NCBI GenBank assembly: GCA_030062745.1
Contig: CP099850.1
Location: 3,720,001-3,784,000, forward strand
Direction of reading: 5' to 3'
Length of the DNA: 64,000 nucleotides
Source: Capitulum mitella
Taxonomy: Eukaryota > Arthropoda > Thecostraca > Pollicipedomorpha > Pollicipedidae
The position numbers were made by a program, and so were the translations under genes. The notes under the pieces are model-generated. The model saw nothing but the letters and a program-made list of their open reading frames with translations. It was not told where the DNA came from and did no database searches. Positions 20,501 to 51,293 of the stretch are shown in pieces. The first letter of the stretch is position 1. Each line of letters opens with the position of its first letter.

Positions 20501-20937
20501 ATGATTTTCCACACCGTTGCCATTTTCATTTATTTCCGCATCGAGAATTCTGTCAAAAGAAAAGATTTGTCCCACGAGAAAATGGCTATAAGGTAATTTT
20601 TCATTTCGAACATCTGTCCTACGAGAGAACGGCTGTTTCATTCAAAATTACATAGAATTCAGAACAGAAAAGAACATCTGTCCTACGAGAGAACGGTTGT
20701 TTCATTCAAAATTACATAGAATCTAGCTGTACGGGAATCCAGTCGGCACGACAGTCGGCCGGATGTGAAACAATGTTTTACAAAAATCGAGCAATACGGT
20801 ATTTTGGGTTACGAGAATTATGTTGTGCGAGAATTTTACATTACGAGATTTACGTCGCACGAAAACTTTGCTTTAGGTGAATTATACCCTACGGCAATTT
20901 TGCATTACGAGCTTCTGCGACACGCAGATCAGATCGA
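20500..20937. repeat. Degenerate short tandem array (ACGAGAATT-type units), left part
   Basis: Repeated words such as TACGAGAATT, TTGCATTACGAG and GTCGCACGAGAAT recur every ~20-28 bp. It includes a clean 51-bp direct duplication (20608-20658 and 20672-20722, one mismatch, 64 bp apart). The array resumes at ~22,180 beyond an inserted element. Confidence 0.75.
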
Positions 20938-22156
20938 AATAACCTGCCCCCGAATGGGGGAGTTGACCGACCCCCGAGGTTTTTACGAAATTATGAGAGG
21001 ACAAACAAACGCAGCGCTACGAACTTCGTGTACCTTTTGTTTCATCATTTTTACGCCTTGTACCCAATTTTTGAATTCAGGTCAAAGAAGGTGTCTGACC
21101 TAGGTCAGGTCAAGTGGACCTATGTCCAAAAAAGTTGAGCGTCCTGTAACTTTTTCGCAAAACATGATATCACAATTGAACTTCTAAAGGTTAGAGACTT
21201 TGATAAATACAACAAATCTGCTATCTCGGATTTCTCGGAAATGTCTGGGTGATTGACTTGAGATAGAGTCCGTTTTCAACATAAGGCGTCATTTTCTCGA
21301 AAACTGAAGGGATTTTTGGTAACAATTTGAGTGTGGAGAGACCCAGACATCCAGTATCCGTCAATCAGCAAAGTTTTAATGACCTCCGACCACTGACCTG
21401 AGGTCAGGTCACGAACAGCTGTTATGGGTCAAAATGCACTGCCATCAAAATCGACGATAAATGACTCAGATCGGGTAAAAAATGGCGGAACCGGCTGGAA
21501 TGACTGCGAATAATATCAAAAACATCAAAAAGTTCCGAAAATGCAAATTTTGGAAACAAACTCTCGCGGATAAAGGTACACCAGTTGTGTAGACTGACAG
21601 CTACTAATTATTTCCAACATTTAAGCACAAGAAACCATCACAGGAACAACCTGGACCAAGAAACAACACTTGGACAGGCATATTTTGCGAAATAAAAGAG
21701 CGCCAGCATTACTTCCTGTTAATTGCATACCTCGTTCGCCTATGGCGCCCGCCCAGCAACGGTGCGGAAATCGCCGTTTCTTTACCTCAACGTTTCCGCG
21801 TGCATATTAAACAAATTAGGGAAATCAGACGTGTATCTGCATCTGCGGACTTTAACCTGTCCGCTGGTACCTTTATCTAGACTTAATTTATCACAGCCCT
21901 TGAGATCCAGGCCGTTTCTCGGTATCATGCATTCGGCTATGAGAAAACATATATCGGGTGTAAATGGCTTACATGTTTTCCAAAACTAGAAATGACACCA
22001 GTTTCGAGCTCTACTGGTCACGGACTTTCCAACCGTGTGTTTATTTTATCATACGACCAACCGTTTGTGAGTTAGGGAGTAGCGACCAACCGCCCCCCCC
22101 CCCTATTCCCCAAATCGAGCGTGCATGGCGGCGACCAATAGTCGGTCTCGAGTTAA
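20938..22156. mobile_element. piggyBac-like MITE, family 2, copy 1, inserted in a tandem array
   Basis: About 1.2 kb, aligning along its length with the copy at 27.56-28.79 kb (shared GACCTAGGTCAG, AAGTGGACCTATGTCCAAAA, GATAAATACAACAAATCTGC and more). The right end is ...GTCTCGAG followed by TTAA; the left end CCTGCCCCCGA is preceded by ATAA, probably a mutated TTAA. A G-rich stretch sits just inside each end. Non-coding. Confidence 0.72.
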
Positions 22157-22179
22157 GTCGAAGCATTGCTTCCTTTAGT

Positions 22180-22690
22180 TGTTTTCCGTCCCGTACCGTA
22201 TGGGAACGGGAGCGTGATACCAGTATCTGTTCCGGAGATTTATGCAGTATCAGAATATATGGTTCCACGGGAATCTTGCGTTACTACGTCGAAACATGCA
22301 TTGCGAGATCTGTCCTGAGGAATGTGTTTTCCAGGAATAATGTCGCACGAGAATCAGTCCGACAAGAAAACAGCTGTACGGTTTTTTATACGGTCATCGC
22401 TCCCACGAGAAAACGGCTGTACGAAAATTTAGAATTACAAGAGTCTGGCTAGTCGATAATGTAGTGCGTACGAGAATCGGTCCGACGAAAACAATGTTGT
22501 ATGGGAATCTCGACATACGGGATTTTGGATTACGAGAATTAAGCCGTGTGAGAATTTTCCATTGCGAGATTTATGTCTTATCGTACCGCAAAGTTCTCGG
22601 CAAGAACTTCGTTTCACGGGAATTATGTCGCACGAGAATTTTGCAAAATGAGATTTCTGTCGCAGGGCTCATTTTAAGAGAACAATGGCT
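22180..22690. repeat. Degenerate short tandem array, right part
   Basis: Same ACGAGAATT / GCACGAGAAT / ATTGCGAGAT words as at 20.5-20.9 kb, at ~20-28-bp spacing. The two parts were one array before the family 2 element landed in it. Confidence 0.72.
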
Positions 22691-24130
22691 GGGATGACAA
22701 AAACAGCAAGGAAAATCCTCGAATTTTGAACACGTAGATTTTGCGTCTCGTTTTTTTTTTGTTGTTGTAGAATTACGAGTCCAAATGGACAGTGCAATGA
22801 GCCGAAGAAAGATGTTTTGACTCCAAAGAGTACTTGTTTCCTGACGGCTGCAGATATGCGCCATTCCATTCCATCCCCCACGCACCTCTAGTAAGGGAAA
22901 ATGAAGTTCTTCGGACACGACACGACTTTGTATTCGCGGTTTTTAATCGCTCTTGGACAAAATGTCGGCCCTAAAATACTCAGTCACCTTCATGAGAAGG
23001 GGAAATATTTTCTCTGTGTGGGATACTGCATAATCAGTTGTAATTCGGGCACGCGGTGATGAGCTTAGGGTGATTTTTTGTCATTACTCGCAACGGCCAG
23101 CCGGGCGGACACCCCACAGTAACGCCAAAGGGTTGTTGCTACTAATATACTCTTGTTGCCGTGGCTTTTCATCGGGGCGTTCTACCTGGTTCATGTAATC
23201 CTGGGCACTACAATGCACGTGATTGCGTCATTTAGGCTGACCACACTTAATCGGTTTACCACGAATTTGAGACGACCTGCGTGGAATTTCGGCATGAGCG
23301 AACTTCGTTAAAGTTATCGCAAAATGAACACATCCACTTTAAAATCAAACTACATGTATTATCAAACGACATCAGAAAACCAAAAGGCAATGAAACCAGT
23401 ATCTTAACCAACCTATGATATCAATATTTTGCTTCTTCTTTAAGTTATCTGGCATTAGAAGCAGACGCCGTAAGCAAGTTATCAACAGTACCAGCTCCCA
23501 TGATATACGACTGGTCACTGAACTTGAATGAGTGAATTCTTTGCAGCTGATACATGTTTTAAAATATAAATTATTTAAGGTCTTCCGGGAAGTTATTTAA
23601 TCTTCAGTCAGCGGGTCTCTTCCAACCAAGCCGCCTGATGAGAAACTGTCGCACAAAATCGGCTGACTGCCAAGCATGAACTGTTAATCTGGATGCAGAA
23701 AAGTCTCATTAGACCAGGGGAACAATGTGTTATTTAAATAGATATAATATGCACGATTTCCAGTTTCTTCTACAAGAATTTTCCCAGTGTATGTTTGGAG
23801 ATGTGATCAACGAAACGTAACTGGAGAGTTATCTGCGAAATACATTCAAGCAAGGTAGCATACGAGTGCAACGAATAAATCGCCGGCGTCGGCCACCACT
23901 AAGCTAACAAACTGAACGCACGTCCTTGCGAGCCAATGTACCCTCGCCCGCCAGCAGTGTGGAGCGCAGTGTTCCGCGTGCAGCCTGTGACGCTGCTGGC
24001 ACTCAGTGACGCTGCAGCTGCTGCTCAAGTGCTCTGAGGCGATCGGCCCGACGGTGCTGCACACAGTCAGTCGCTTGTGTCTGGGACTGTACCGTCTGTG
24101 TGGAAACAAATGGCTCCAACTCACCAATTC
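22691..24130. other. Intergenic DNA, nothing recognised
   Basis: No gene or defined repeat was found. A weak 93-codon frame on the minus strand (23846-24127) has no recognisable family. Confidence 0.45.
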
Positions 24131-26640
24131 GGAAATGTGACTGTACCAGCCAATTTTTCGGTCCGCGTGTTAACCCTATTCCCGGAGGGCTAGACGGTAT
24201 GGTCGATTCCCGGCAGGGGGGGCGGATTCGGCCCCCCCCTGAGATCTCGAAAACTCCTTGTCCGATTTTATCGCAACAAACGGCAATCGATTTTCCGTGA
24301 CGTAAACTACATTTTTATAAGAAGAAATTTTCCAAATTTTGAAATTTGTGGATACAGGGGGAAAAAATGTCAAAATGGGGGGTACTTTTGGACTTCTTAT
24401 AACTCCGTTGTTTATCGACCGATTTCGATGAAACTGGCATGAATCGAGAGATTATAGATAGGGCTTTTACCATGGGTCCGCAAATCTGAAATTTTGAGAA
24501 AATTTATGGGCATTCACAGGGTTTCAAAAATAGGAGGATTAGTTTTCTAACAACTGAATGAACAAAAGAGGCAAACACCCTTTTTTGGCTTCTGCTAGTC
24601 ATGTTATACTAAAGAAGTACAAATCGCATTACAATGTTTGTATAATGTTAGCATAGGCGGTGCCAGGGACATGAAAAAGGGGGAACTGTCACGGTTACAC
24701 GTTTCTCAGACCAACTTGTGACCTTTGACCTTAAATGACCTCCAGTGACATTGAGGTCACTTTGAATGATCTCGTGTGCATTTAATATCATCTGTAAACG
24801 TTTTCAATCATTTGAATTCACTCCATTTCAAAAATTTCATTTTATGGCTATTGCGATATAGGGTACGCGCACTGACATTTTAGGTCATAGCTCCGTGACC
24901 CGACCTGATATCAAGCTGAAACTTGGTACACAAGTAGAGAGCACCCTTCTACGTTATATATATTCCGGGTTTGGCATATGAAAAAATGCCAAACCCGGAA
25001 ACCCAAAAAGGCGCCGAAATTATAGCGAAAAAATCAACTTTTGACTTTTGACTTTGACCTGACCTTGTAAAATGACCTCAGATAAACAAAATTATATTCG
25101 CACATTTCCCAACTATTTAGCTATACATCCATATAAAGTTTTAGGTTCTAGCTTTAAAACTCTGTTTTTGGTAGACATTTTCCTTTTACCCTCAACATGG
25201 CCAAAAATGGCATGAGGTGCCTCCCAAAAACGTTGCCTGGCTCCGCCCCTGAGCAAAATAGAATTTTGAAATTTTGTCACAGCACGTAGAAAGAATAGTT
25301 AGGAAAAGTCACCAAATTTCGTAAAGCTGCGTTAAAAAGCCTGGCATTGGCACGTAGAAAACCCGAGGGGGGCGGATTCCGCCCCCCCCCCTGCCGGGAA
25401 TAGGGTTAAATGTAATCGCCAAACCAGCGGATAAGGCTATCAGCCTGAAAATTCTAGACTACTTGGCATGCAGCTCAGTTCTGACACCCACTCTGTTTGC
25501 CTACCGACCAGCCGACTGGACGGAGGACACCGTGCTCGACGTTATCAGTCATGTCGGTGGTAACACGGACAGGGGTCTGTTGACATCGATCACGTCACCT
25601 GACTTATCCAAGGCTTTTCGTTGTGTCGAGCGCGGGGTCCTCCTTTCGTGTAGGATGGTTTGGGATTTTATGGCACTGGATAAGCAACCATTTCACGGAA
25701 AGAACGCTGATAGTAAATGCGGAACGGCATCCTTGGAGGTACGCTTTGGTGTAGTACAGGGCGGAACCCTCGGACCAGTCTGTTCACGGGTGATTTGACC
25801 AGCAACATGGTAAACTCAAAAGCTGTGAAGAAGATAGATCTTGTGCAGTTTGACATCAAACTCTGCTGGTGAACTACAATGTTACATAAAGACAGACTTG
25901 CCCAGCCAAGTCATCGCCTTTGGAAGGTAATGTCTTCCTGGTTTAACAGCATCGGTCTAAAGGTGAATGCGGACAAGACATGCTTTTTACTTGTTGGGAG
26001 TCCCACCAGTACTGCTCGAGCAGTCAGCCTGACAGTCAAATTCAACGGTAAATAGTTGAATCATTCAAGCAAGATCAGAATTCTCAGAGTGAAAGGAAGT
26101 GTGACTACATCGTAGCAAACATTAGAAAGCTAAATTCCCCGCAAGAGAACACAAAAACGATGATCCAGACCCCTTGTTTCCGCTATAGTGACGTACTGAC
26201 TGCCGGATCTGGCGCCTAGCACACAGGGAAACGTGTCCAGAAAGTGCTACATTTTCTTGTGCGAACAGTGACTTGTCTTCGTAAACATTAGCACACTTCT
26301 CAAGCTAGCAGATAATTACGATGGCTGTCATTGGACAAAATAATCGCGATGCGCGATGCGCAACATATCCACTGTACGCTGTGGAACGATAACGGTTTCC
26401 GATGCCTTAACTCCCTCATCGAAACACGCGTTCAGTTACTGATGAGGCGAACCCGTCCAGTTATTGACAGACTGGTGCTGCACATCCCCAGATGCCGACT
26501 CCAGACCACCAACATGTCGTTTCCCCGCAGCGCCGTGACCACTCGGAATGGCCTGCTGTGAGGTGTAAGGGACTACGATGTGGCAACGATCAAAAAGACA
26601 GCTCGAACGTTTCTTAGCAACGGTGTTAACTGATCGTGTA
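24131..26640 (+). mobile_element. LINE relic (reverse transcriptase part), split by a MITE
   Basis: Non-LTR reverse transcriptase blocks in order are VIAKPADKAISLKILDYLAC, FAYRPADWTEDTVLDVI (cf. FGYR...TEDAL), SPDLSKAF (cf. DLSKAFD), FGVVQGGTLGPV (cf. GVPQGSVLGP), then a degenerate stretch where no YADD could be seen. A C-terminal block TTNMSFPRSAVTTRNGLL near 26,500 resembles the usual LINE ending (F.PR....WN.LP). Stops and frame changes show it is dead. A piggyBac-like MITE sits at a TTAA within the coding region. The family is probably CR1/Jockey-like, but this is not certain. Confidence 0.75.
24174..25405. mobile_element. piggyBac-like MITE at TTAA, 1,232 bp
   Basis: TTAA flanks both ends (24170-24173 and 25406-25409). 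The element starts CCCTATTCCCGG and ends CCGGGAATAGGG, a perfect 12-bp inverted repeat with a CCC terminus as in piggyBac. Just inside lie GGGGGGGCGGATTCGGCCCC-type hairpins on both sides. The interior has long AT-rich non-coding sequence and several TGACCT motifs, including a direct repeat with one-base spacing at 24719-24731. Confidence 0.9.
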
Positions 26641-27560
26641 TTGACGGACAATGAAGGCTTTTGTGTATGTTGGAATGCGTCTGTGCGAGTACGAGAACGA
26701 ATACGTGGGCTGTGTTGTGGGCAGGTGGACATTTTTGGCTTGCAAACATGACGCTCGGTGTGTAGGAGCCGGGAACCCCTAAGAGAAACAACGCAGCTAA
26801 CAAGAAACAAACAATACAAAGGCAACAAAATACAAAAAGCAATACAATGCAAAAACAATACATTCAGCACCTTGGTTTTTATCGATTCTTTAATTGCTTG
26901 TTCGCTCACTTTGATCACTCGCTCTGTCTGATGTTTTTGCTGTTTTACGCTATCGATAGGATTGCAACTTTTGGGCTTGACCAAAAATTGCGCTTAGTTT
27001 CACAGAGCTCAATCATGCGAAAATGGGGCTTCGCCATAGCCAGTTTGGTCATATACGACTTTTCCCATTGGACTTTGAAAGCACCAGACAATTTACTTCG
27101 CTATGGGCGAATTGCGTTCTTAGCGTTGTGCGCGGATTTAGCTGTAACCCATTCAGGCTGAGTGACCGAGCAAAGTGAGGAAACGCAATCACATACCTGA
27201 TGAAAACCAGGGCTCTGAATGATCGTTTCCTTACTTCAATTTAATTCACAGACATGGCTTGAGATCCTGGGCTAATGGGAGGGTCGCGACCTCCCTCGAA
27301 CTTTTCAGATATTTTAATGTTCCTCGGTACGCCTGAGTCATTAAAATCTGTTTTACATTAACATTAGGACTATAACAATGACTGGAAAGAAATTCGAGAT
27401 TCTTCCATTGTTTTTTTTTTTAAGAATATCGTCTGTTCCTCCAAACTATTTTTGGAAATATCCAGTCATGTTCCTAGATAACTCTTGCATTACGCTTCTT
27501 TGATCAACAGTTATGTTCCGCAGGGAAATGTCCACAGCATACTCATTTTTTAGGCTGTGT
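26641..27560. other. Intergenic DNA, nothing recognised
   Basis: AT-rich, with short A-rich repeats near 26.8 kb that may be the tail region of the preceding LINE relic. No gene seen. Confidence 0.4.
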
Positions 27561-28787
27561 TTAAATAACCCGCCCTCGACTAGGGGGGGGGGGCGGGCGG
27601 TTGACTGCCCCCGGAGATTTTTCCAAGATTGCGAGAAAACGAACAATGGCAGCGCCACGAAATTCTCTGCAGCTTTTGCTTGATCATTTTTACATCTTGT
27701 GTCAAATTTTGACCTCAGATCTTGTAAGATGTCTGACCTAGGTCAGTTTAAGTGGACCTATGTCCAAAAAAGTTTAGCGCCCTGTAACTTTTTTTGCAGA
27801 ACATGAAATCACAATAGGACTTTCAATGGTTAAAGATTTTGATAAATACAACAAATCTGCTACCTCGGATTTTTCGGAAATGTCCGGGTCATTGACCTAA
27901 TCTGAAGTCCGTTTTCAACAGAGAATGTCGTTTTTTTTAAACTGACCGAATTTTTTTGACAATTTAAGTGTGGGGAGATCCAGACATCCAGTTTCCGTCA
28001 ATGGGTAAAGTTCCAATAACATCTGACCACTGACCTGAGATGAGGTCACGAATAACTGTTATTAGTCAAAATACGCTGCCGTCAAAATCGGCGATGAATG
28101 ACTCAGTTCGGGTCAAAAATAGCATAACTGGCTCACACATTTGCAACTAATACCGAGAAGCTGAAAAACTTAAAAAAATGCATATTTTGGAAATAAACAG
28201 ACTTCCGCGAATAAAGCCCCGTCAGTTATGTAGATTAATACCTGCTGAGTTTTCCCAAATTTGACCATGAGAAATCATCCCAAGAACCAATAGGATCAAG
28301 AAACAACACTTGGAGTGGCATATTTCGCGAAAATAAAATAATGCTAAGATTGTTGCCGTTAATTTCAAACCGCCTTCGTCGGCGGCGCCCGTCTTACCCC
28401 GTTGCGAGTATCGCGTTGTCTTTAACTCAAAATTTCCTCGCACATATTAAAGAAATCAAAAAAATTAGACGTGTACCGGCATCTGCGGACTTTTACCTGT
28501 CAGCTGGTGCCTTTATCTAGACTTTACTAGTCACCGCCCTTGAGATTCAGGCCGTTTCTCGGTTTCATGCAGACTGCTTTGAGAAAACATATATAGGACT
28601 AAATGACTTGCATATTATCCAAGCTAAAAATAAGAACAGTTTCGAACTCCACTGCTCCCGAGCTTTCCAACGGTGTGCTCATTTCTATCGTGCGACCAAC
28701 CGTTCGTGAGTTAGAGGGGGGGGGGGGTTAACCGTCCCTCCCCAGTCGAGCGTGCATGGCCCCGACCTACAGTCGGGCGCGGGTTAA
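27561..28787. mobile_element. piggyBac-like MITE, family 2, copy 2
   Basis: Starts after TTAA at 27561-27564 (ATAACCCGCCCTCGAC) and ends ...GTCGGGCGCGGG before TTAA at 28784-28787. It is collinear with copy 1 at 20.94-22.16 kb over its whole length, with roughly one difference every 8-10 bases. G-runs lie near both ends. Confidence 0.75.
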
Positions 28788-29297
28788 ACAGACAGTAATA
28801 TTTAAAAATCAGTACTAGTGCACTTATTTGAGAATACTGATCGTTTCAAAAGACCTTAACGCAAACAGCTGTGAAATTCCTGCGGAAACTCCTTTAGAAG
28901 GAACTAGGCATTGTGCGCAATGGAATTTAGATAGCTGATACCTTTTTGGACATAATGTAATTACGTGTAATGTAATGCAATGTGTTTTTGTTTAATTTTT
29001 ATGTTACAAACTCATGTTTTAACAGTCATCCGATTTTATCAGGCAGTCTATCATCTGGCGGCTTGGCTAACGGAAACCCACTGACTGTAGATGAAATAAA
29101 AAAAACTAGCAGCAAAAGTTAACTAAATCATACTGTATACCATACATGAATCACGAGAATTTTACTGATTTGAGCTGAGTGGCCAGTCTTTGCCCCTTAC
29201 CCATTAATCACGTGTTAATGGCGTCCACGTTTCAAATCAAGCGTCCCTTTGGGCACCGTCGTGATCATGCCGTCACGCAGTTGAAGGCCGTTCAAAG
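28788..29297. other. Intergenic DNA, nothing recognised
   Basis: No coding or repeat signal was identified between the family 2 MITE and the next family 1 MITE. Confidence 0.4.
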
Positions 29298-29717
29298 GAG
29301 GGGTGTCGATTTGTATTCTTTTTGAGAGGGCCCTGCCACCCCCATGTCAACTTGGGCTGCTCAAATGTTGGCTTGCCCCACCAGTATTTTTTGCCGGTTT
29401 TTGGGGGAAATGGGTAATAATAACGAAAGGAACAGCCGCACTGGATAAGAGGTAGGCAGAAACTATAGAATAAAGCATGAAGTGATGTATCTCTCTATGT
29501 TTCTGTCTTTCTATGTTTCATCTGTTTCTGTGTCTAACTATTTTTCTATGTCTCATCTTTATATATATATGGAAATATTTGCATTTCTTACTTCATAAAT
29601 GGTAGTAGAAAAACTTCTAAATTTCCGTTGATGAAACTAAAGTGGGCTAATTCCGTTGAGAAACCCACATTTGGGGGCAGGTTTTGTTGTCGGGCTCGAC
29701 TCCCAATCATTAACAAA
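29298..29717 (+). mobile_element. hAT-type MITE, family 1, copy 3 (right end missing)
   Basis: Starts GAGGGGTGTCGATTTGTATT, shares the internal blocks GGTAATAATAACGAAAGGAA and CCGTTGAGAAACCCACATTT with the other copies, and stops at CCAATCATTAACAAAAAG without the CCCTG terminus. It abuts a GC-rich array element, which probably replaced its end. Confidence 0.8.
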
Positions 29718-31216
29718 AAGTTTGGGGGAGCAAGCTTCACAGTTTCATCAACACTTCAGTCATCTCAGGTTTCATCCTGTCGTCCCTGGGAAATTTTTGT
29801 CGTCTGAGGAACTCCTCAGACACTTACAAGGACCCTCTATGAGTCTGCCGTTACAGAGGCGCCTCTGAAAATGTTCTACGTCTTTGGCCGTTTCAGGTGT
29901 TGTTTGGATGTCTTAACGTTTAATAGTCTCGGGGGTCCCTCTGGTCATTTCAGGGGTCCCTCTTGCTAGACTGCTAGTTAACAGTCTCAAAGGCTCCTCT
30001 CTAGCTGTCTCATTGGACCTCTGTTGTCCGAGGTGCACCTCTTGTCGTTCCTGGGGAACGCTTTTGCTGTTTCGGGGGATCTCTGGCAGTTAGACCTTTC
30101 GGCGATCTTTCGGTCCTCTGCAGTGTCATGGGCCCTCTGGACGTTTCCAGTGGTCTCCATGGCTGTATCAGGTGTCTTCCTCTTTTACATGAGGTATATC
30201 TGGCAGTCTCAGGGCCCCTCTAGTGGTATCAGGGGCCTTTGCTGGCGCTTCAGGGGCCTCACTGGCAGTCTCAGGGGGACCTTTTCCGTTCCAGGAGCCC
30301 ACCTAACATACTCGGGGGCCCTCTGGCCACCCAGGGCCCCCGTACCGTCTCAGGGATACTTTTGTCGTCTTTGCCTCGTAGGGGCCTTCCGACCTTTTTG
30401 GCGGCCCTACGGGCCATCTGCCATATTGAGGCTCTTCTTGACGTCTCAGGACTCACATGACCTTCCCGGGGCCCTTTGACTGCATCAAGAAGCCCTCAGG
30501 TTTTCAAAAAGACCAGTCTATCCCATTTTGGACTCCTCTCAAGGTTGAGAAGATCACTGGTCAATCCCTGTTCACACCCTTTGGCTAGCCAGGGTCTCCT
30601 TTCCGTGTTAGGTACTCTCTAAAGTTCTTGCCATCGCAGGGCAATAACTCTTGCATTTTTAGTGGTCTCATGGACCCTTTGCCGTCTGGGGCCTCTCTTG
30701 CGGTCCCAAGGACCGTTAGGGAGTTTTAGGGGTCATCCTATCCGTCTAAGTTATCATCTTACAGTCTCAGGGTCCCATTAATCGTCCTGGAGGCTCTCTG
30801 ATAGCATCAGAGCCTTTCAGCTTTTCATGCGGGCCCGTGAAGCCCATTCGAGGCCCTATGACATTCCAGGGGCCCCTATGCCGTCCTAAGGGCTCAGTCC
30901 TTATCTTGGCCGTTTCATTGGCTCTGTGACCTTTCTCGCAGTCTCAGGGAAAGTCCCCGTGTTGGGGCCCCGCTTTAGTCCCAGGGACCCTTTGGATGTT
31001 CCGGGGGCCTTCTAGGCGTCTCAGGGATCATCTAACATCTAACCCTTGCAGAGGCCTCCTGACTGCATCAAGAACCCGCCGCATTTTCACAGAGACCCAG
31101 TGAAGCTCATACGGGACCCCTTTTGAGTCTGAGTGGGCCATTGGGGAGCCCCCTCGTGGGCCCCTTTCTCAGGCCTGGGGGCGATCGCCCCTATCGCCCC
31201 CTTTGATCTGCACCTG
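29718..31216. repeat. GC-rich degenerate ~30-bp array element, copy B1
   Basis: About 1.5 kb of units approximating CTCAGGGGCCCTCTGGCAGT with period ~28-32 bp. The block ends GCGATCGCCCCTATCGCCC then GATCTGCACCTG, matching the end of copy B2 (40.4-40.48 kb). The left end has TTTGGGGGAGCAAG, close to the inverse of that terminus. Long open frames inside (e.g. 30024-30479) come from the repeat composition and are not genes. Confidence 0.75.
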
Positions 31217-31413
31217 GCTAGGATTGGCCACGTGATAGGCGAAGCGATGGTTTTATGTTTCGTATACTGAACGCTGCTGATGATGATAAAAACTCCGTTG
31301 CGCTCCGCTTCCATATCTGAGCAAACCCCATGCGCAACTGCACGCCGCACTTCCGAATGTAAACAAAGAATTAGACAAGACCAACCTCCGGTATTTATTG
31401 CCGTTTTCAGTAG
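31217..31413 (+). promoter_or_regulatory. Candidate DYNLRB1 promoter region
   Basis: CpG-containing, non-repetitive sequence between the array element and a SINE head, with ACTTCCG (ETS site) at 31349-31355 and ATGCGCAACTGC nearby. It is the only promoter-like stretch upstream of the first DYNLRB1 codon before the CpG-depleted block. The placement is inference. Confidence 0.3.
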
Positions 31414-31560
31414 TCCTCGTTAGTGTAGTGGATAGAGGTCTGGACTCATAATAAGGTTGTGGGTTCAAATCTCGATGCCACTAGCTGTCGATCGGTGACA
31501 ACTGTAGTGTGGTAAAGGGACTGGACACCGGACGCTTGAGCCCAAGTGGCTGTGCGCCCT
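31414..31560 (+). mobile_element. tRNA-derived SINE head
   Basis: TTAGTGTAGTGG fits the pol III A box and GGTTCAAATC the B box, at tRNA spacing, with CTCATAA in the anticodon-loop position (Met-like CAT). The anticodon stem (TCTGGA / TAAGG) and the acceptor stem do not pair, so it is not a working tRNA gene. A non-tRNA body follows to about 31,560. Confidence 0.55.
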
Positions 31561-32535
31561 AGCCCAAACCAAGTCATTTTCAGTATTTTCTTGGTGAAAG
31601 ACTATTGTAAATCTATTGAAGGTACAGAAAATGCTACAGTTGCTGTGTGCGGCTTTATGAAATGCCATGAAAGTTTAACTTTGATTGCCTTTTTAGGCCC
31701 AACCAGGTATGCTAGGTTCAATCTGCCAATTGTGTAAAGAGAAGGACGTTTTGTTGTCTTGGGTTCTGGTTGTTCTCAAGGCTGCTTTGCTATTTCCAGC
31801 CTCAAGTAGTCATAGTATTTTCATCACTGGCTGTTTCCCATATTTTGGTATGTGTGAGTGATCTGGTCATTTTTATCTGATAATGTGGATAGGATGTTAT
31901 TTGAATATTAGTGTCAGAACTGTGACATTGATCATTGTAGTAGCTTATGTATCACTCTGTTGACCATGACACATATTTCCTGCTAAATCAATATCATGGG
32001 GTAGCATTTGGGGTATTCTTTAAGTTCCATAGTTCATTATTGATGTAGCATATCATTCCACATGTTTTCATTGTCTCATGAATAGGGAATAAATAATAAC
32101 TGTTGATGTTATTCTGCCCTTAGTACCCAGAAAGAGAAAGCATGATCTTTGGACACATCATTTAGAGAAAGTCAACATTTCAAGAATGGTGAAAAACTCT
32201 GATCAGAATCCCCCCTAATCTTATGTATCTCTGAATTGTGATAATCTCCAATGTGTATGTCCAATGTGCATAAAATGTGGATAGATAACTGTGCCTGTTT
32301 TGGCATGCAAGATTGTCATCATCTGGCCATGTGATTAAAGAACAGCATGATATTTGGCAGGGCTCTGCACTCTTGGTATAAGCATAACACCCTTGTGGAG
32401 ATCATATATGGGGATTCTGTATGTCTTTATTGTAAAAACACAGGGAGATATTGAACCAGAAGTGTCATAAGTACCATCATGATAGTTTTACCTGATGTTG
32501 TTTAAACCCTCTTACTTAAATGGATCATTTTACAG

Positions 32536-32599
32536 GTGCTGAACTTTATACAGATTGAATTTTGAGGTTTATTACAAGCACTGAACACCTGAAGCTATG
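32536..32599 (+). CDS. DYNLRB1: DYNLRB1 exon with the start codon (5' limit uncertain)
   Basis: Only the ATG at 32597-32599 is coding. A possible acceptor ATTTTACAG ends at 32535, which would make this an internal exon with 61 nt of 5' UTR and place the real first exon further upstream. Alternatively transcription starts nearby. Confidence 0.6.
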
Positions 32600-35500
32600 G
32601 TAAGACCTGGTGCAAAGGGTATGAGCTTTAAAATGCCAAAATCCAGGAATAAGAATACTGATTTTGATCATTATATGTATAGCTTTGTCCATGACTTAAT
32701 TATAAGAAACATTTTGCCCCATCCCATACCAAGATTGGTGCATTGTTTTAGTATCCAGTTCATTGTTTTTGGTCATTTGCAGTAAGGGTGTGCTCACCAG
32801 TATCCTTGGATGGTGAATTGGATTCTGCATGCTTTTGAGTATGGATTATGTTCCTATGATGCACCATGACAGGACATCTTTACGTTCCAGGCATCTGAAG
32901 TTGAAGAGACGCTGAAGCGAATTCAGTCTCATAAGGGTGTTATTGGAACCATCATTGTTAACTCAGAAGGTAAATAAAGATGTTGGAACTTTGAAAAGCT
33001 GTCAAATGTATGATAACAGTATGTGTTACTAATAAATATGCTTCTTTGTGTACTAAATATGCTTTTTTGTCTGTCCAGGTGTTTTGCATACAGCATGTCA
33101 CTGCTGCATTTGTTTCCAAATGTTGTTGTCTTTTGTTTCCAAATGTTTTGTTGTCTTTATGGCTTGCTTAACAGACTGCTTATAGGTCCTGAAATTTGTA
33201 TTCAGGGTCACATGTAAAATATATGGTGTAGGAGTTTGGGTGACACAGTTTAGTGCTCAGCATGCTGACTGGGCAACCAGAGGGATTCTGTTTTGAATCC
33301 ACATAATAACAGTGTTTCCTATCCCTCAGGACAACTGACATAAAAGGTTGTGATGTGAAATAACTATTGTGGTGGGCGAGGGGCAACAAATTCCTTAAAA
33401 ACTAGCCATTGCAGATGTTAGAAAATATGATGATGGAAAGAGCAACCACCCAACCAGAGGGGTCAAAGGCAGAACATCCTGCAAACCTGACAGGATTGTT
33501 GGGTTACCAAAACCAACCTTGGTTTTGTATAGTTTTTCTTTTACTTCAACAACTGCCTTTGTCCAGAAGTGCAGATTGTTTCAAGCTAAATGCTGCTGCC
33601 AGTAGAAGACATGAGGATGTTGATCTCCAAGAGCTAAGTTACACTCTCTGGCATGTTATCCCGTGACTCTGCTGTCGCGAGCGGCCCCGTGAGACAAGCG
33701 AGATTCGCGAAATGGTACTAATGAAGTGTGAGAAGGCTGGCGTCCTGTGACTTCTGACCTGACGATGCCAAAATCTCTTGTTGGGGTTGTTTGGTTACTG
33801 GGCCCGATAAAAACATTGTGGTCTCGGGGGTCAGCAGGGGCCTTTTCTTCCATATCAAGCCCACGCGAACTCCCATAGAGCATCTCGAGGTAAGCAGAAC
33901 CCTTCTATGTTCTCAGGGTGAGGAGAAAGGGCATCCAGCTGGGGGAGTGAGCGCGTGGCCCAAGGAGGGTGCGACAGCTCGGAGCAGTGGTAAAAATGCT
34001 CGGCTCCGGATTAAAACGTTTGAAGCCGGCTGATGGCGGGAACTCGAATCCCCGACAAAAGGCGTGAAATGCCGCGACGCGAAACCATTCCGGCTTGGCC
34101 ATCGAAAGCGTCCACGCTCGGCCCATTGACAGAGCTGCATACAGGGTGATTCGTCGAGAATTCAAAAACGCGTCCGACATTAATACGCATGTCTTAAAAT
34201 GCTAGAAGGCCACAGGCCATTGCGCGCATACGGTTGCGAGTGTGAAGAGACCCATGCTATCTGTGTTTTGATTCCGGAAACTGCAAAAGTCATTTAAAAA
34301 AAAAATGAAAAAGTTGGACATGCAAGCCGGGAAGACATGCATTCGGCCAGCAGTTCCGATACTTAAAATAGATAACTGGCATGGATTCTGAGAGTAAACC
34401 GTGTACCTTTTGGCTGCCGTCGGGGTCTCAGAACGTCATCTGCATCAAAGAAGAGGGGTCCGGCGAGTCTGTGGCGTTCCGATGGTGTGGTGGGCGTCCA
34501 GAGCTATTATTAAACGTTTGAAGCGGGAAATGATAACCGTGGTGAAAAGGTCGTGACAGAAGCGTCGCCGCGATCGGGGCGATTCGCCGTGGTGGTAGGG
34601 GAGCTACCGTGGTCTCATGATCGGACAGGTGGTCAGGGCGGCTTTGAAAGCTTCCCGGCCGGCCAGAAGGGAGGAGCCGGACGGAGGTGGTGCTCCACGG
34701 AACGGCGATGGCGCCGCCCGGTGTTGGGGAGCCTGACTGTCCAGCGGCCGGTGGTGGGATGACAGTGCTCGCTGCTCGTCCCGGGGTGGCCCCAAGCGTC
34801 TCGGCCGCCTCTGAAGGTCCCCTCCCGGTCCCTGCAGTCGTGTCTCGCGCTGCTGTTGTCCCGTCTGACCGGGGTGGCCGTGCCCTCTCGCCGGCGTCCG
34901 CGGCACGCTGCTGGCCGAGGGTCGCGTCGTGCGCGCCAGTCAGTCAGTCCGCTGATAAGGCGCGGTACGAGGTTTGTGCTAGCGTTCGTTGGCCTGCGCC
35001 CGCTCGTGACCCCATAGCAACAGGCTGTAGGAATCGGTCGTATAGGTCGCAGTGAAAACTCGCGGGAAGCCGCTTTGAAACTCCGTAAAGGTAGAGTTTT
35101 GAGGCAAAGCGGACGTTAGTTCTCTATTTCTAAGATTGTAGGCTACAACTTAGCTCACTCAGCTCAAAGCGCACGTTAGAGATTGAACATTGCCTTCAGC
35201 GCAGAAACCTGAATATACGATGTCATACGTTGACTGACACTGATGAATCCAACCAGAAAGACCGGTTTGTCTGCTAGATTTTCAGCCGCGTGGAGTACAA
35301 GTAATTTGTTTTTCAGGATTGTCAAACGCCATGTGCAGGATTGATGATCAAACGCCATGAAAGTTCCGTTGTGTTCGTTGGCTTCTAAGCAAATATTTTG
35401 TTAACCCGCACACCTTGGTGATTGGGTGCATGGAGTGGGGCGTCTCGAGAATACTTCATCCCTCCGCAGTTTTCGGACCAAGCTCAGAAATGAAAGGGGC

Positions 35501-36997
35501 TATAAACGCGACAATTTAAGCATACACAAATGCATGTACAGTCGGTACGGCACATAGGTTGGAACGTCTCAAAAAGTGGGGGTGCCAAAGCCAATTTTGA
35601 AGTCTTTTCTCTGGGCGCCGAATGACCCTGCAGTCGGTGCGCCCCTAAGCCCCAATAACCAACCAACCAAGTCTTTTCTCGTCATGCATCGCCATAGGGC
35701 TAATGCTCAGCATTCTCGGAAAGTGAGGGTGCTATGGCACCCACAGACTCCTCGTTCTTATGCCTATGGTAGGGCCAGAACCGTTTTGAAGAAATCTCCT
35801 TCCGTGCACTGTGGTAATGATCATGCTATTCTTAGTAGTTGGAATGCCCTTCGCGTTAACGCTCTTCCTAGGAGGGGGCCGATCTGCTCTTGCTCTGTAG
35901 CTCAGGTATGGCACAAACCAGCTGCATGTGACTAGCACACAGGAGCGCAGGTGCCCATACACTCACGTTAACACATGTTGATGGACGCACATTGCTGCAG
36001 TTCGTAGTGACTCATCTGTTTTTTTTTATTCGTGCATTCATTCATTCATTCATTCATTCATTCATTCATTCATTTAGTCGTGCACTCATTCATTCATTTC
36101 TGTATTCGCGCGTTTCTTTACTTATTTATTCTTCCATGTACACGTTCTCTTGAACATTCGCCCGTTCGTGTACGCACTTATGCACTCACTCCTCGCTGGC
36201 TTACATACTCACTCACGCATTCTCTCACTCAGTCGTCCCTCAGCCGCTCGTTCATTTACTCACTGACTCGTTCTCTCACTTACTCACCCGCTCACCCACT
36301 GTCCGCAGGAATCCCTATCCGGACGACACTGGAAAACTCTCTGACGGTGCAGTATTCGGGTCTCATCAGCCAGCTGACGGACAAGGCTCGCTCCACCGTG
36401 CGCGACTTGGACCCGACCAACGACCTCACCTTCCTGCGGATACGCTCCAAGAAGCACGAGATCATGGTGGCGCCGGGTATGTGGTCGGCCGGAGGGTGCT
36501 GGGCTTAGAGAGCGCTGTTGGGCTTGTGGCCTGCTGGAATGGAAATTATTGTTTGCCGTGTTCACCTTGTGTTCGTTTTCAAAACTGTTGTCTGTGATCG
36601 ATGCTTGTACTCGAGGAAAAAAGGATTACGTTTCGGTCAGCAGAGCAGTTTGCAGTTTGTTTTCGAGACCTACTCCGCAGGACTACGTTTGTATGATATC
36701 CAAACGAGCCCCGTCGGTCTGCTGAGCCTCCTGAATCGTCGTCTGAGGCCTGTGGTCGCGTTGTGTCTGTGTCGTCACCTGGTGCATTCCTTCACGCAGG
36801 ACCAACCCTATCAGAATTTTAATCTCGGTAACAGTCCCAGAAGATGCCTACTAATGCATTTGCAGTCATGCTAACGGACCTGTCCATGACTGCATTTCAT
36901 GTACGCGTTGTTTGTGTGCACATGAAAATCTTACTCCCGGAATTCCTTTCCAGATAAGGAGTACATCTTGATAGTGATCCAGAATCCAAACGAGTAA
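32597..36997 (+). CDS. DYNLRB1: Dynein light chain roadblock-type (DYNLRB1), complete
   Basis: Four exons: 32597-32599 (the ATG alone, donor ATG|GTAAGA), 32891-32969, 36309-36476 and 36954-36997 (TAA). Phases agree and give 97 residues (human DYNLRB1 has 96). The translation begins [20 protein letters not shown] and ends [27 protein letters not shown] in human is [13 protein letters not shown] here. The protein is one roadblock/LC7 domain. In other animals it dimerises, binds the dynein intermediate chain and helps cargo binding (family knowledge). The ATG sits alone at the end of its exon, as in the human gene. Exons 1-2 lie in AT-richer CpG-poor DNA and exons 3-4 in CpG-rich DNA. The longer open frame starting at the same ATG simply reads into intron 1. 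Confidence 0.97.
32891..32969 (+). CDS. DYNLRB1: DYNLRB1 exon 2
   Basis: Encodes [20 protein letters not shown] followed by IIVNSE plus one base. Acceptor TACGTTCCAG, donor GAAG|GTAAAT. Confidence 0.95.
33975..34075 (+). mobile_element. Possible tRNA-derived SINE head in DYNLRB1 intron 2
   Basis: CTCGGAGCAGTGGTAA resembles a tRNA D arm / A box and AACTCGAATCCCCGAC a B box, ~65 bp apart. A fragment with the shared word AAACGTTTGAAGC recurs at ~34,514. Weak similarity only. Confidence 0.35.
34550..35060. other. GC-rich island inside DYNLRB1 intron 2
   Basis: A ~500-bp GC- and CpG-rich patch with overlapping open frames on both strands (e.g. 34687-35055). No domain is recognised, and the Pro/Arg/Ala-rich translations look compositional. 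It could be a regulatory island or an unrecognised repeat. Confidence 0.3.
36036..36075. repeat. (ATTC)n microsatellite
   Basis: Nine to ten ATTC units, followed to 36,300 by degenerate CACTCACTC/CATTCATT-like sequence that runs into the pyrimidine tract of exon 3. Confidence 0.95.
36309..36476 (+). CDS. DYNLRB1: DYNLRB1 exon 3
   Basis: Begins by completing Gly (G|GA) and encodes [20 protein letters not shown] then [20 protein letters not shown] and [10 protein letters not shown] plus one base. Acceptor CTGTCCGCAG, donor CCGG|GTATGT. GC-rich codons, unlike exon 2. Confidence 0.97.
36954..36997 (+). CDS. DYNLRB1: DYNLRB1 exon 4 (C-terminus and stop)
   Basis: Completes Asp (G|AT) and encodes [13 protein letters not shown] then TAA at 36995-36997. 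Acceptor CCTTTCCAG. Confidence 0.97.
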
Positions 36998-37320: not shown

Positions 37321-38441
37321 TGCATTGTTGTCTCTAATACAGTGAAAAACGAAGCAGGTTATAAGACCTCAGCGGTCATTAGCATTGTTGTCCGGTCAAA
37401 ACTCGGAATCCACAGACTGAAAGATCTAAGCGGGGTATGACGATCTCCGCCACGCTTAAAGGAAATGTTCCAGCATCCTTTATTTTGAACCGAGATGGCC
37501 GAGTTGTAGTCAGTGGTCTTAGCAGCCGGTGTGTACCAAGGATGTCGGACATTTTCCAACCAACCAAGTCGATTTAGGGCATTTATGATAATCGATATAT
37601 GTTTATCGGTTGGTCGATATCCAACCAACCAACAGAATCGATATTGTGGAAGGGGACGGAAGTGGCACCTTGCCTGTGCAGACACGAGACAATGTGGTTT
37701 TCTTAGATGCGCCGACCTCGCAGGCCGGGCCTCCTTTGTGAAGATTTCTGAAGTAAAATAAAGGAAAGAAAATTTCGCGTCACATTCAAAATACCCCCAC
37801 CCGTATTCTGAGTGGTTCACTGTTTTTGCGGTAATTTCATTGTCATAATCATATAAGCTAGATCAAACATGACACTTCGCGAACGCTGAAGGCAAGATCT
37901 CATGTCTTTCCCCACCCCGATCTGGCGAAGCTCATGAGTGATATTGACCAACGTTCGAAGTTAGCTCGTCTGAACCCTATAAAGTTAGTATCGGTGCACG
38001 ACAGGGTCACAGGCGTCGTGCAAACTGTCGGCTTCCACACTTGCGACGCGACAGCGACACTATCTACATTGTCTCCGGCAGACGTGTAGGAACGCGACGA
38101 AAAGTGGGGGAGGGACCATTCGCCCAGGAAGGGCGCCAGCCTGCAAGGGGGCGCCGATGTGAAACAGGTCGCCATCTGTTTAGAATGAAACTGGTAATTT
38201 ACTTCCATATTTTCGGGTATCAAGACATATGTCAATGCATTTTTATCTTAAGATACACGTTCGCGGACATGAACGGTGCCAAAGGACCAGATGGGGCCAG
38301 ACTTTTTTACTTGTGCTTTTGTGACAATGTCACGTTTGGTTTCAAACTTCGGATGTCATTTTTTTCTTCTGCTTCGTTTGGTGATAATGGTTCGAAACAG
38401 CTGCGTCACATCTGATTTTTCTTATAAAGCCTACCTCATCT
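37321..38441. other. Intergenic DNA, nothing recognised
   Basis: No gene is seen. Short repeats of CCAACCAACCAA around TATCGATA-like palindromes occur at 37,555-37,640. Confidence 0.4.
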
Positions 38442-40477
38442 CAGGGTCTTAGCCAGGATTTCGCCTGGGGGGAGGGCAAATCGGATCAAGGGGGCCCTCT
38501 CCAAGGGCTGATCCAGCATTTCGCCAAGGCGGGGGAATGGAGACGAATGGTCAGCGCGGGGTCCCCATTTTTTGCCCTTCAGTGACGAGAAATTCTGAAA
38601 TTTTGCTTTTTTACCTGGCGCTCCAAAATAACCGGGAAAAATTCAAACCGGTCACCTTGTTTGAGAAATTTTGAGTTTTGTTCCCGAACAAAGTGGCCGA
38701 AATATGACAAAAGCGGCGAGATTTTGGGCGGTTCCGTCCCTCCCTCCATTTAAAATGTATTGTTTGCATCTGGTTCAGGAGCCCGTCTGTCCCCCCATCC
38801 CGTAGCTTCTGGGGACTTTTCGTCCGCTTAGTTTAGGTTCCCTCTTGCAGTTACAGGGACACCTTTGGTGGTCTCGGGCCGTCTGCCATGCCAGGACCCT
38901 CTAGTGGTCTCACGTTCCTTTTACGGTTTCACGTGTCCCGCGGGACGTCTCAGACGCACCTTTGGCAGTTTCAGGGGCACTTCGGACAGTCTCAGGGACC
39001 CAACTGGCAGTTTCAGTGACGCTTAAGCTATCTCGAGTTGCCTCCTGTCGTCCCTGGGACGTTTTTGCTGTCTAAAGAGCCCCCTAGACATTAAAAAGGC
39101 CCTCAATAAGTCTCTCTGCCGTGACAGAGGCGCCTCTGGCAATCCTCCAGGTCCTCTGGACGTCTCAAGGTCTAGTAGTGTCAGGGATCCTTCTATCGTC
39201 TCAGGGGCCCCTATTGCTGGAGACTTCTAGTTAGCATTCTGAAAGGTCACTCTCGAACAGTCTCAGCGGACCCCCTGTGGTCCTGGGTACCCCTCTTATC
39301 GTCTCTGGGAAACATTTTTGCCATCTCAGAGGCCCTCTGACAATTACAAAGTACTTTGGTACTTTGTATTTGTTTGGTACTTACAAAGTACCCTGGCAAT
39401 TACAAAGCACTTTCGGCAATTTCAGGGTTCCTGTGCAGTGGCATAGGCGCTTTGAACGTCGGTGGTCCCCATGGCTGTATCAGGGGTCTTCCTCTTTTCC
39501 CTGAGGTGTATCTAACAGTCTTTTAGGGCCCCTCCAGCCGTAACAAGGAACTTTTGTTGGAGCTTCAGGGACTTCACTGGCAGTCTCAGGGGGATCTTGC
39601 CCGTACCAGGGGCCCGCTTACTACACTCAGGGGCCCTCTGGCCGTCCAGCGCCCCCATAAAACCCAAATACCATCTCAGGGGCCCTCCTATCGTCTTTAC
39701 CTCGCAGGGGCCCTGCGACCTTTAGCACTTGGTGGTCTCAAGGATCATCTGCGGTGTACGGTCCCATTTTGCCGCCTCAGGAACCACCTGGCCTCGGGGG
39801 CCCCTGACAGCATCAAGAACCCCTTAAGATTTTCAAAATGGCCAGTGTAGCCCATTTGTAGCTCCTCTCGAGGTCACCGACGAATCCCCGTTCAGGGGGC
39901 CCCACTGGCTGGCTATGGTCTCCTTATGCCGTGCTAGGCACCCTCCTAAGGTCTTTCCGTCTCAGGTGCCTCTCTGGCAGTTTTGGCGGTCTCATAAACC
40001 CTTCACCAAGTTGGGGCCCCTTGTGGTCTTAGGGGCCCGTGAAGAGTTTCTTTCGATCTTAGGGGCCATCTTACCGTATCAGGGTCTCATTAACCCTCCC
40101 GTAGGCCCTCTGACTACATCAAGACCTCTGAGCTTTTCACTCACAGGCGCCCCCAAGGGAATCAGTCCTCATCTGGGACGTCTCAGGGGTCCTATGAGTC
40201 ATCTGGCGGTCTCAGGGACACTCTGCCGTGTTGAGGCCCTGTTGTGGTCTCAGGGCTCTTTGGGAGCTTCAGGGGCCCTCTGTGCATCTCAGGGGTCATC
40301 TAACCCTCCAGGAGGCCTCCCTGACGGCATTAAGAGTCCGTCAGGTTCTTATAGAGACCCCGTGAAGCTCATAGGGGGCCCCTTCGGGGCTTCTTTTAAG
40401 TCTGACAGGAGCCCTTTCTCAGGCCTCAGGGGGAGGGGACGATAGCCCCAATTGCTCCCCCTTTGGATCCGCACCTG
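38442..40477. repeat. GC-rich degenerate ~30-bp array element, copy B2, with hAT-like ends
   Basis: The start CAGGGTCTTAGCCAGGATTT and the end GGATCCGCACCTG (inverse CAGGTGCGGATCC) resemble the CAGGGGCGTAGCCAGGA-type ends of hAT elements. Between them ~1.6 kb consists of degenerate CTCAGGGGCCCTCTGGCAGT units. The final 100 bp match those of B1. No clear 8-bp target duplication was found. Open frames inside are compositional. Confidence 0.72.
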
Positions 40478-40489
40478 GCCCTCGTAATC

Positions 40490-40680
40490 AGTGGGACCCC
40501 ATGTGGTTAAAATTACTGTCGGTTTGTAAAGGGGCCCCGCTGATGTGTAAAGGGGCCCATGCTCTCCTGTAAAGACGTTCCTGCCGACCTGGCGGGTGCC
40601 CCTGCCGACAGGGGGCCCTCCCCAGACAAGCAGTGAACTTCCCTACAAGCTAGCAGGGGCCCCTAAATGCTCATTTAGAC
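40490..40680. repeat. Short GGGGCCCC-rich array
   Basis: Units such as TGTAAAGGGGCCCCGCTGA and CCTGCCGACAGGGGGCCC. It resembles, in inverse orientation, the array at 45.1-45.76 kb. Confidence 0.55.
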
Positions 40681-40948
40681 CACGGGCCTCTCGTCATAGC
40701 ACACAAAGCCTTCTTGTGTATTCGGAGTACGTTTTCTCTAGGTTCGTAAGCCTTCTTTAACGGTTAAAATATTCTTATTTTGCCTTAATTGTGTATTTCG
40801 GACAGTGTGTGACGCCCTGCGGGTGCCTCACGCTATCTAAAGAACTGGGGCCTTCAGCCCTAGGGGGACCCGCTCGGCCGCCAGGGGGCCCCGCTTGGCC
40901 TCCAGGGGGAGGCATGACCCCTTTGGCCCAATACCGTACATCTCTGGG

Positions 40949-45114: not shown

Positions 45115-45760
45115 TTTATAGACGCGCAGGGGTCTTTTTAGGAGGCAGCTTGGGGGGCCCTTTACAGGGGTACCTCTACAGGCCCGCAATGGCCCGCCTA
45201 CAGGCCGGCAGAGGGTCCCTTTGCATGTCATCAGAGAGCCTGTGCGGGCCAGCAGGTTGCTCCTCTTCAGGCCAAGGGGCACTGAGTTGGCCTGTAGAAC
45301 CGGAAGCACGAACCTCTTTGGAAGCTTGCAGGGGACCACCTAAAGGTCAGCAAGCGGGCTCTTTGCAAGCCAGCAGGGTCGCTTTACCGACAAACAAGCC
45401 GTCCTTTGCACGCCTGCAGGCCGACAGGGCAACAGGGGGCCCATCTGCAGGTCCAAAGGCGGACTGTTTACAAGCCAGTAGGAGCCCTTTATGAGCTGTC
45501 AGGGAACCGTTTACTAACTGGCATGGGCCTGTTTTATATTTACCCTCTACAGGCTCGCAGGGGTCAATCTGCTCGGTGACACAGGACCTCTTTATTGTTT
45601 CTTTATATGGCAGAGGCCCTTTAACATGTCGGTGTTCAGCCCTTCATGGGCCAGCAGGAGCTTTCAGCAAGCCGGCAGGGACCCTTTTTACAGGCCAAAA
45701 GGAGTCTCTTCCACATGCCAGCAAGAGCCTCTAAGCTTTGCTACTTTAGCTGGTATGAAG
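45115..45760. repeat. GC-rich degenerate ~30-bp array (ACAGGCCGGCAGGGGCCCTTT units)
   Basis: Units built on TACAGGCC.GCAGGGG.CCCTTT recur roughly every 30 bp over 650 bp. The open frame through it (45006-45494) is compositional. Confidence 0.7.
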
Positions 45761-46515
45761 CCCTTTAGCGAAAAGTGTCCTAATAATGGTGCCCCTTCAT
45801 GCATAGTAGTCACGAAACCCCTCCGCGCACAGCACGGAGCGGCAGCCTAAAAAAAATGTGGAAATGTGTGACCATAGCCACTGGATATTGGGCACGCTGT
45901 CTATGCCAAACTAGCACTTCTGGCTGCCCTGGCATGCTCCTTTTACATTTTTATGGTGCGTTTTAGCGTATTACGCTCGGATGATTTGGGAGGTGTAGTG
46001 CCGCGAAGTCAAGCCTTGCCTAGTTGGTTTGAAATTATGGTGAATGGGATCATTCGCATAAACAACTTTCCCGACGTTTAGACCCAAATATCCACGTGTT
46101 CAGCAGTTCACAGGGTAGGCAGAGCAGCAGCTACACCAGCTTGGCGGTGGCCCAGCGAACCTTGGATTAGCGTAACTTTAGTTTTCTGATATTGCATAGA
46201 AATACATCCCCCCAAAATAGCTTTGGCCGTACCGACCAATTCTGAAAATGCTCCTACACTGGTGAAAATATCATTTACTCGCAGGCAGACCGCAAGGTTT
46301 AGTGACATCTCCACCAGGCTTTAGCATCTGCACTAGCTGGCCGCAAGGCATGGTGACTGATAATCCTGGTTGTGTGGATAGGCATTGTCCTGCAGTTGAA
46401 CGACACGGTGAACCCCTTTGTCAGGCGTCGCCATTGCACATCGCCAGCGGTGCGAGGGGTCCGAATCATTCATCATTCATTCATCATTCGTCTGTCCGAC
46501 TTCGCTGAGTCGCCG
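45761..46515. other. Intergenic DNA, nothing recognised
   Basis: No gene seen; a CATCATTCATTC-like short repeat precedes the 75-bp minisatellite. Confidence 0.4.
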
Positions 46516-48927: not shown

Positions 48928-49097
48928 CAGATGCGGTCTCGGCAGAGTGACGGAGGGCCGGGGGGGTCGGGGTCGGTGGACCGAGCCGCCGCCGACCGCG
49001 CCCCCCTACAGAATAATTCGAAAGAGAAGAAGACGGAAAGTCAATCGTCCGGCCGCGGCTGCTGCCTCTGCTGGTGCTGCTGCTGCACGTGTAACAG
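48928..49097 (+). CDS. First coding exon of an RGS17/19/20-like (RZ subfamily) regulator of G-protein signalling
   Basis: Acceptor GTCCGCCTTGCAG is followed by CAG and ATG (48931). The frame reads MRSRQSDGGPGGSGS, then NNSKEKKTESQSS, then GCCLCWCCCCTCN plus two bases, and ends at donor AACAG|GTGAGT (49098). Human RGS17 starts MRKRQQSQNEG and carries CCFCWCCCCSCSC, so both the start and the cysteine string agree. In the family the cysteine string is palmitoylated and anchors the protein to membranes, and the later RGS domain is a GAP for Gi/Gz alpha subunits. The RGS domain exons were not found to the right; they probably lie beyond base 64,000. Fifty-five codons are visible. A longer open frame over the same bases in another frame is an artefact. 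Confidence 0.78.
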
Positions 49098-51000: not shown

Positions 51001-51245
51001 GTCCTTTTTTCGTGAGACGCCCTGTATGAATCATATACTTAGGCGAGAACATGGCCGTCATGCCAAAGGGAGCTTTTGTCGCGCAGTATTTTGTTGTTTC
51101 TTACCGTTGTTCATGACGATTATGTTTCTGAAATGCTCCTTACGAAATCGTCTTTTGTTCTGTTTGTACTAGGGACTCGGTATAAGATTAGCTATGAGTC
51201 TATGTCAGTACGAAACTAAATATACGCCAGAATGGACAGAGGCAG

Positions 51246-51248
<3 letters not shown>

Positions 51249-51291
<43 letters not shown>
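51249..51291. repeat. (GA)n microsatellite
   Basis: Pure GA dinucleotides over ~42 bp. Confidence 0.97.

Positions 51292-51293
<2 letters not shown>

Follow-up and report, generated by a model that had tools for sequence, protein, structure and literature searches.

Two CpG-depleted blocks with a deamination signature near the 5' ends of a roadblock dynein light chain gene and a vigilin gene

In a window of 64 kb from the genome of Capitulum mitella (the whole stretch of DNA that we analyzed), CpG dinucleotides are nearly as frequent as expected (o/e 0.95, GC 0.49), except in two blocks where they are almost absent. One of them covers positions 31557-33661, in the 5' part of a gene for a roadblock-type dynein light chain on the plus strand, and the other covers positions 13457-15122, in a predicted 5'UTR intron of a vigilin gene on the minus strand. 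Judged by their dinucleotide composition, both blocks bear the mark of germline 5-methylcytosine deamination and not that of AT-rich or foreign DNA. We consider it likely that such a block is the scar of long-maintained germline CpG methylation across approximately the first 2 kb of a broadly expressed gene.

Extent and edges of the CpG-depleted blocks

The block in the roadblock gene is 2,105 bp long and contains six CpGs (o/e 0.08; TpG 1.47, CpA 1.50), located at positions 31650, 31747, 32883, 32910, 32918, and 33377; the nearest flanking CpGs are at 31555 and 33662. The first-pass annotation of this DNA had estimated about six CpGs in 2.1 kb, which is the exact number found here, and its coordinates were correct to within a few bases. 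The block in the vigilin gene is 1,666 bp long and contains four CpGs (o/e 0.07; TpG 1.52, CpA 1.50). The rest of the window has a CpG o/e of 0.98, and its first 9 kb, which correspond mostly to the body of the vigilin gene, contain 949 CpGs.

In a maximal-segment scan of the window, the two blocks scored 63.4 and 47.9 and the third-best segment 10.3, while the top score among 1,000 simulations, in which CpGs were placed at normal density at the C positions of the window, was 14.7. Background windows of 2,105 bp contain 85 to 125 CpGs each (95 overlapping windows from positions 20501-29500 and 51001-63000, joined), and the minimum among the 1,079 overlapping windows of this length that are clear of both blocks is 65. 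When the letters of the roadblock block itself were shuffled 2,000 times, a mean of 75 CpGs and a minimum of 52 were obtained, compared to the six that are present; 2,000 shuffles of the vigilin block never fell below 37. A chance origin of the depletion was rejected on the basis of the simulations, background windows, and shuffles, and low GC content as such was rejected as its cause based on the own-letter shuffles and on the GC content outside CpG contexts, which is similar to that of the background. The five longest CpG-free runs in the 64 kb (1136, 859, 518, 459, and 285 bp; the sixth measures 200 bp) are all within the two blocks or terminate at a block edge.

Under the CpG rates assumed for the inside and the outside of the blocks, all four edges were placed to within about 80-240 bp. 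The left edge of the roadblock block falls within 31535-31771, and the likelihood interval of its right edge is 33597-33674, across which the number of CpGs per 100 bp changes from 0, 0, 1, 0, and 0 to 9, 3, 5, 9, and 12; this confirms the abrupt edge that had been noticed within the intron at about 33,660. The edges of the vigilin block fall within 13447-13634 and 14958-15151. Immediately to the left of the roadblock block, between a GC-rich repeat and the block, there is a CpG-normal stretch (31219-31556, plus strand; 21 CpGs in 338 bp, o/e 1.05) that represents a candidate promoter region. Positions 31414-31480, just left of the block, look tRNA-like by eye and are perhaps the head of a SINE; ARAGORN and Rfam reported none and gave no useful result.

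To the right of the abrupt edge, the remainder of the intron (33662-36308, plus strand) is CpG-normal, with an o/e of 1.08 in 33662-35167 and 0.92 in 35168-36308. An edge of this kind could also be the boundary of an insertion if methylation had once extended over the whole gene and a younger insertion in the large intron had renewed its CpGs. A weak inverted repeat, in which 33620-33640 pairs with 35147-35167 at 16 of 21 positions, has one of its arms within the edge interval, and repeats are common nearby; however, an equally good inverted repeat appeared in 8 of 100 shuffles, so this one may be due to chance. CpG is still normal from the far arm of the repeat to the next exon, and in that exon as well, so the missing depletion further on would need more than an insertion to account for it. 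In addition, the region 33660-36300 has no second copy in the window, and the edge of the vigilin block is sharp too. We consider the insertion unlikely and favor a methylated domain restricted to the 5' region of the gene.

The roadblock and vigilin genes

The roadblock gene encodes a complete protein of 97 residues when positions 32597-32599, 32891-32969, 36309-36476, and 36954-36997 of the plus strand are joined in frame. Its best matches in the PDB are 9fqr_H1, dynein light chain roadblock-type 2 (1.1e-49 over residues 3-97), and RE64145p (4e-49), presumably the fly protein; Pfam Robl_LC7 was detected at 2.1e-14 in the frame of exon 36309-36476. By sequence similarity, the roadblock domain spans the whole short protein, which places it among the Roadblock/LC7 dynein light chains. 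The gene had been annotated as DYNLRB1; its identity as a roadblock dynein light chain holds, and the PDB matches make DYNLRB1/2 ortholog a better name. Relatives of the protein were also searched for in prokaryote and viral contigs, where 85 and 9 pattern matches, respectively, were obtained and none was confirmed. The sequence CCAACCAACCAA occurs three times in the window (35659-35670, 37556-37567, and 37621-37632), always near the roadblock gene, while 0.52 occurrences are expected.

The exon that ends in the start codon (32536-32599, ATG at 32597-32599) is flanked by an acceptor-like site of 6.6 bits and a donor-like site of 9.0 bits, and its join to the following exon is in frame. It must be considered that our splice scores use generic frequencies and that exons predicted from them are tentative unless the protein supports them. 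The coding exon within the block (32891-32969) holds two of its six CpGs (o/e 0.61), while the next coding exon, beyond the block (36309-36476), is CpG-normal with 16 CpGs in 168 bp (o/e 1.07), and the last one, with the stop codon (36954-36997), has one CpG in 44 bp. The exons also differ in their third codon positions, which are G or C in 9 of the 26 codons of the exon inside the block vs. 57 of the 69 codons of the exons outside. Two exons are indeed inside the block, as had been stated, but numbering them 1 and 2 is uncertain, given that an acceptor-like site precedes the first of them. This site, at 32536, points to a further exon upstream, for which the best donor-like site is found at position 31706, slightly within the block.

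The transcription start of the roadblock gene is a predicted one, and if it were near 32.5 kb, the block would include the promoter too and could be a methylated promoter or upstream region. The moderate score of the acceptor-like site at 32536 speaks in favor of this alternative. On the other hand, the block extends 1 kb beyond exon 32536-32599 and covers the next exon, the vigilin block is inside its gene, between two predicted exons, and promoter methylation has been described as generally low in invertebrates (PMC9842680). A methylated promoter is thus quite improbable in our view, compared to methylation that would begin inside the gene.

The minus-strand gene is identified as vigilin by its sequence, which contains many KH domains, including the Vigilin KH: KH_1 was found in each of the three minus frames over 1-15 kb, and KH_Vigilin was above the cut-off in two of the three. 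Its candidate first exon or start region is at 15365-15450 (the upper end is a guess), with a donor-like site of 9.1 bits and an NRF1-like site at 15397-15406; a predicted 5'UTR exon precedes the block (15208-15278; acceptor-like 9.2 bits, donor-like 6.6 bits), and the predicted first coding exon, which has splice-like sites, comes after it (12836-13196). CpG is normal on that side, with 71 CpGs in 12837-13456 (o/e 1.00). If transcription started near 15.4 kb, the block would span from about +300 to about +1,950. That the vigilin block lies after the promoter may be proposed from the predicted splice sites and the NRF1-like site. Both have their limits, since high-scoring donors, such as one of 9.8 bits at 13755, are also present inside the block, and the NRF1-like sequence GCGCANGCGC has four matches in the window (0.71 expected), three of them elsewhere than at the vigilin start, and thus falls short of proof. 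The region 48501-49500 is GC-rich (0.60-0.66) and CpG-dense and has an NRF1-like site at 49121-49130; it is a possible gene start without an adjoining CpG-poor block.

The first-pass annotation had described the roadblock block as mirroring the vigilin block in size and in position relative to the gene start. The two are similar in size (1.7 and 2.1 kb) and both are near 5' ends, with the position relative to the roadblock start being a predicted one. The contrast that had been drawn with an RGS-like exon lacking a CpG desert was not supported; the scanned stretches yielded no RGS domain. Pfam was run on six frames over 16-64 kb, where the roadblock domain was the only match, and on the minus strand over 1-15 kb; phmmer against the PDB, on six frames of 49-64 kb, gave no matches; and motif searches for RGS-like sequences gave nothing convincing. 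No third gene was recognized in the stretches scanned with Pfam and phmmer.

Deamination signature and proposed methylated domain

The loss of CpG with a gain of TpG and CpA is the established signature of germline 5-methylcytosine deamination. In both blocks, TpG and CpA reach 1.47-1.52, compared to 1.07 and 1.12, respectively, in the rest of the window. Measured against two background stretches (9 and 12 kb long), the CpG deficit is 93 in the roadblock block and 74 in the vigilin block, vs. TpG plus CpA excesses of 84 and 64. The GC content outside CpG contexts is 0.457 and 0.440 in the blocks and 0.441 and 0.446 in the two background stretches; because these values match, CpG decay is sufficient to account for the low GC content of the blocks. 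Other dinucleotides shift in one block only (CpC to 1.35 in the roadblock block, GpC to 1.49 in the vigilin block), and therefore the change common to both is that of CpG, TpG, and CpA. CpG depletion with a matching TpG and CpA excess, as in the footprint of arthropod-type gene-body methylation, is what both blocks present. The proposal that two independent housekeeping genes share one mutational signature agrees with these data insofar as a signature of the methylation type is found in two genes on opposite strands; that roadblock and vigilin are housekeeping, broadly expressed genes is presumed from their orthologs.

The core of the roadblock block (31748-33376) retains three CpGs, of which two belong to the coding exon and the third is located 8 bp upstream of it; this is expected if mutation clears CpGs unless the protein retains them. 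We also considered selection against CpG without methylation, for example for chromatin or RNA reasons. Selection could result in sharp limits; nevertheless, the depletion crosses more than 1 kb of predicted intron without a single CpG (31747-32883), and TpG and CpA make up for most of the loss, as deamination predicts, so we regard this explanation as very improbable. An even smaller probability is assigned to the blocks being foreign or chimeric DNA with a vertebrate-like scarcity of CpG, or an inherently CpG-poor repeat. Their dinucleotides differ strongly from the surroundings and their edges are sharp, but the GC content outside CpG contexts equals that of the surroundings, and the coding exon inside the block joins exons outside it in frame to encode one complete roadblock protein, by which foreign or chimeric DNA was rejected. 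Neither block matches elsewhere in the window at E 1e-3, which makes a CpG-poor repeat unlikely and excludes it within the window.

Three milder CpG-poor stretches (29740-31218, 39008-40681, and 45127-45811; o/e 0.36-0.48, GC 0.55, CpA 1.12-1.47) were set apart from the blocks because their TpG is not raised (0.83-0.89). Positions 29740-31218 and 39008-40479 are same-strand copies of a GC-rich repeat, with 68-70% identity and degenerate units of about 21 bp; the first copy ends at 31218, where the CpG-normal stretch to the left of the roadblock block begins.

The blocks are thus best read as a putative methylated domain that would occupy about 2 kb in the 5' region of the gene. The 5' confinement in conserved genes is found in two genes whose starts are predicted and in which the later roadblock exon and the vigilin body are CpG-normal; likewise, the intergenic background of this window is CpG-normal, as in the footprint of 5'-biased gene-body methylation of the arthropod type. 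The earlier proposal of a germline methylation domain of about 2 kb after the promoter is thus partly supported, namely regarding the 5' domain, while its location after the promoter and its being regulated are conjectural.

Judging by this window, the genome of the animal would otherwise be little methylated. In methylated domains, 5-methylcytosine would deaminate to thymine, converting CpG to TpG and CpA until CpG was almost gone. The machinery is most likely the usual invertebrate gene-body system, in which a DNA methyltransferase would be drawn to nucleosomes marked in early elongation, for example by H3K36 methylation, and excluded from the promoter. With recruitment in early elongation and exclusion from the promoter, the domain would therefore start inside the gene, and it would stop within one or two nucleosomes, approximately 2 kb further on. 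Methylation as such, its enzymes and histone mark, transcription in the germline, and anchoring to the transcription start are all elements that we infer. On the sense strand, TpG exceeds CpA in the two blocks (377 vs. 285), but this gives no sign of germline transcription because introns elsewhere lean likewise (459 vs. 395 in three other intron stretches).

A more specific version, which we put forward tentatively and consider doubtful at present, is that in this lineage germline methylation follows how far a site is from the start of transcription, irrespective of exons, forming a nucleosome-edged domain of about 2 kb that is blind to exons and introns. With two blocks only, such a distance rule is weakly based. 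If true, methylation would have been nearly full for long enough to erase CpG and would end at a set distance in genes of any length; gene methylation of this mode, in which the downstream limit is counted out, would be a distinct one. So complete a loss of CpG means that the domain was held in place for a very long time. If the rule were genome-wide, the sequence alone would locate germline methylation in an unstudied animal without the need to assay it, and the sharp edge on the downstream side would be a clean case for studying what terminates a methylated domain; otherwise, the blocks would be another instance of the known invertebrate pattern.

Comparison with known systems

Vertebrate genomes are depleted of CpG, with loss of CpG and gain of TpG and CpA via methylation, and have unmethylated CpG islands. 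The layout described here is inverted, with a depleted island in surroundings of normal CpG content.

Among arthropods, methylation in Nasonia is reported to peak in 5' exons, to fall towards the 3' end, and to be associated with CpG o/e, with introns being depleted of methylation (PMC3794928), while in Daphnia it is reported to be highest at exons 2-4 (PMC6097596). Both of our blocks are similarly confined to the first part of the gene. In contrast to the mainly exonic methylation described for these two organisms, the blocks consist mostly of predicted intron, with sharp edges and an o/e of 0.05-0.08, and given the low methylation of Nasonia introns this weighs against our reading; within the roadblock block, the introns are almost fully depleted, and the higher o/e of exon 32891-32969 is explicable by protein selection.

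A survey across arthropods describes a layout of methylation along genes that varies, methylated genes that vary less between tissues, and fly orthologs of these genes with well-placed nucleosomes (PMC7343188). Our observations resemble its account of conserved, broadly expressed genes that in some species are methylated over a few 5' exons, and its nucleosome-length signal fits block edges placed to within about 80-240 bp. They differ in that most of its species are described as exon-enriched, whereas our blocks are mostly predicted intron; two crustaceans in that survey are reported to have little exon-intron difference, yet little or no exon excess over background. In a beetle, H3K36me3 is reported to mirror CpG methylation and to peak distinctly where expressed, methylated genes begin (PMC12576374). 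The methylome of a tick, reported as highest near 3' ends (PMC12128260), speaks against a general 5' rule.

CpG o/e has been used as a proxy for methylation in a spider (PMC6409797). In the copepod Eurytemora carolleeae, gene-body CpG depletion is reported for nearly all genes, with a mean gene o/e of 0.5, and this footprint is read as historical gene-body methylation, as we do here (PMC11706791); in our window, by contrast, the o/e is 0.07-0.08 in two short blocks and normal in the later parts of the genes. No description of such blocks was found in a literature search that was less than thorough. By these comparisons, the blocks would belong to a kind already known, the 5'-biased methylation of arthropod genes, and what is distinctive here is the near-total depletion of predicted introns, with sharp edges and an o/e of 0.05-0.08.
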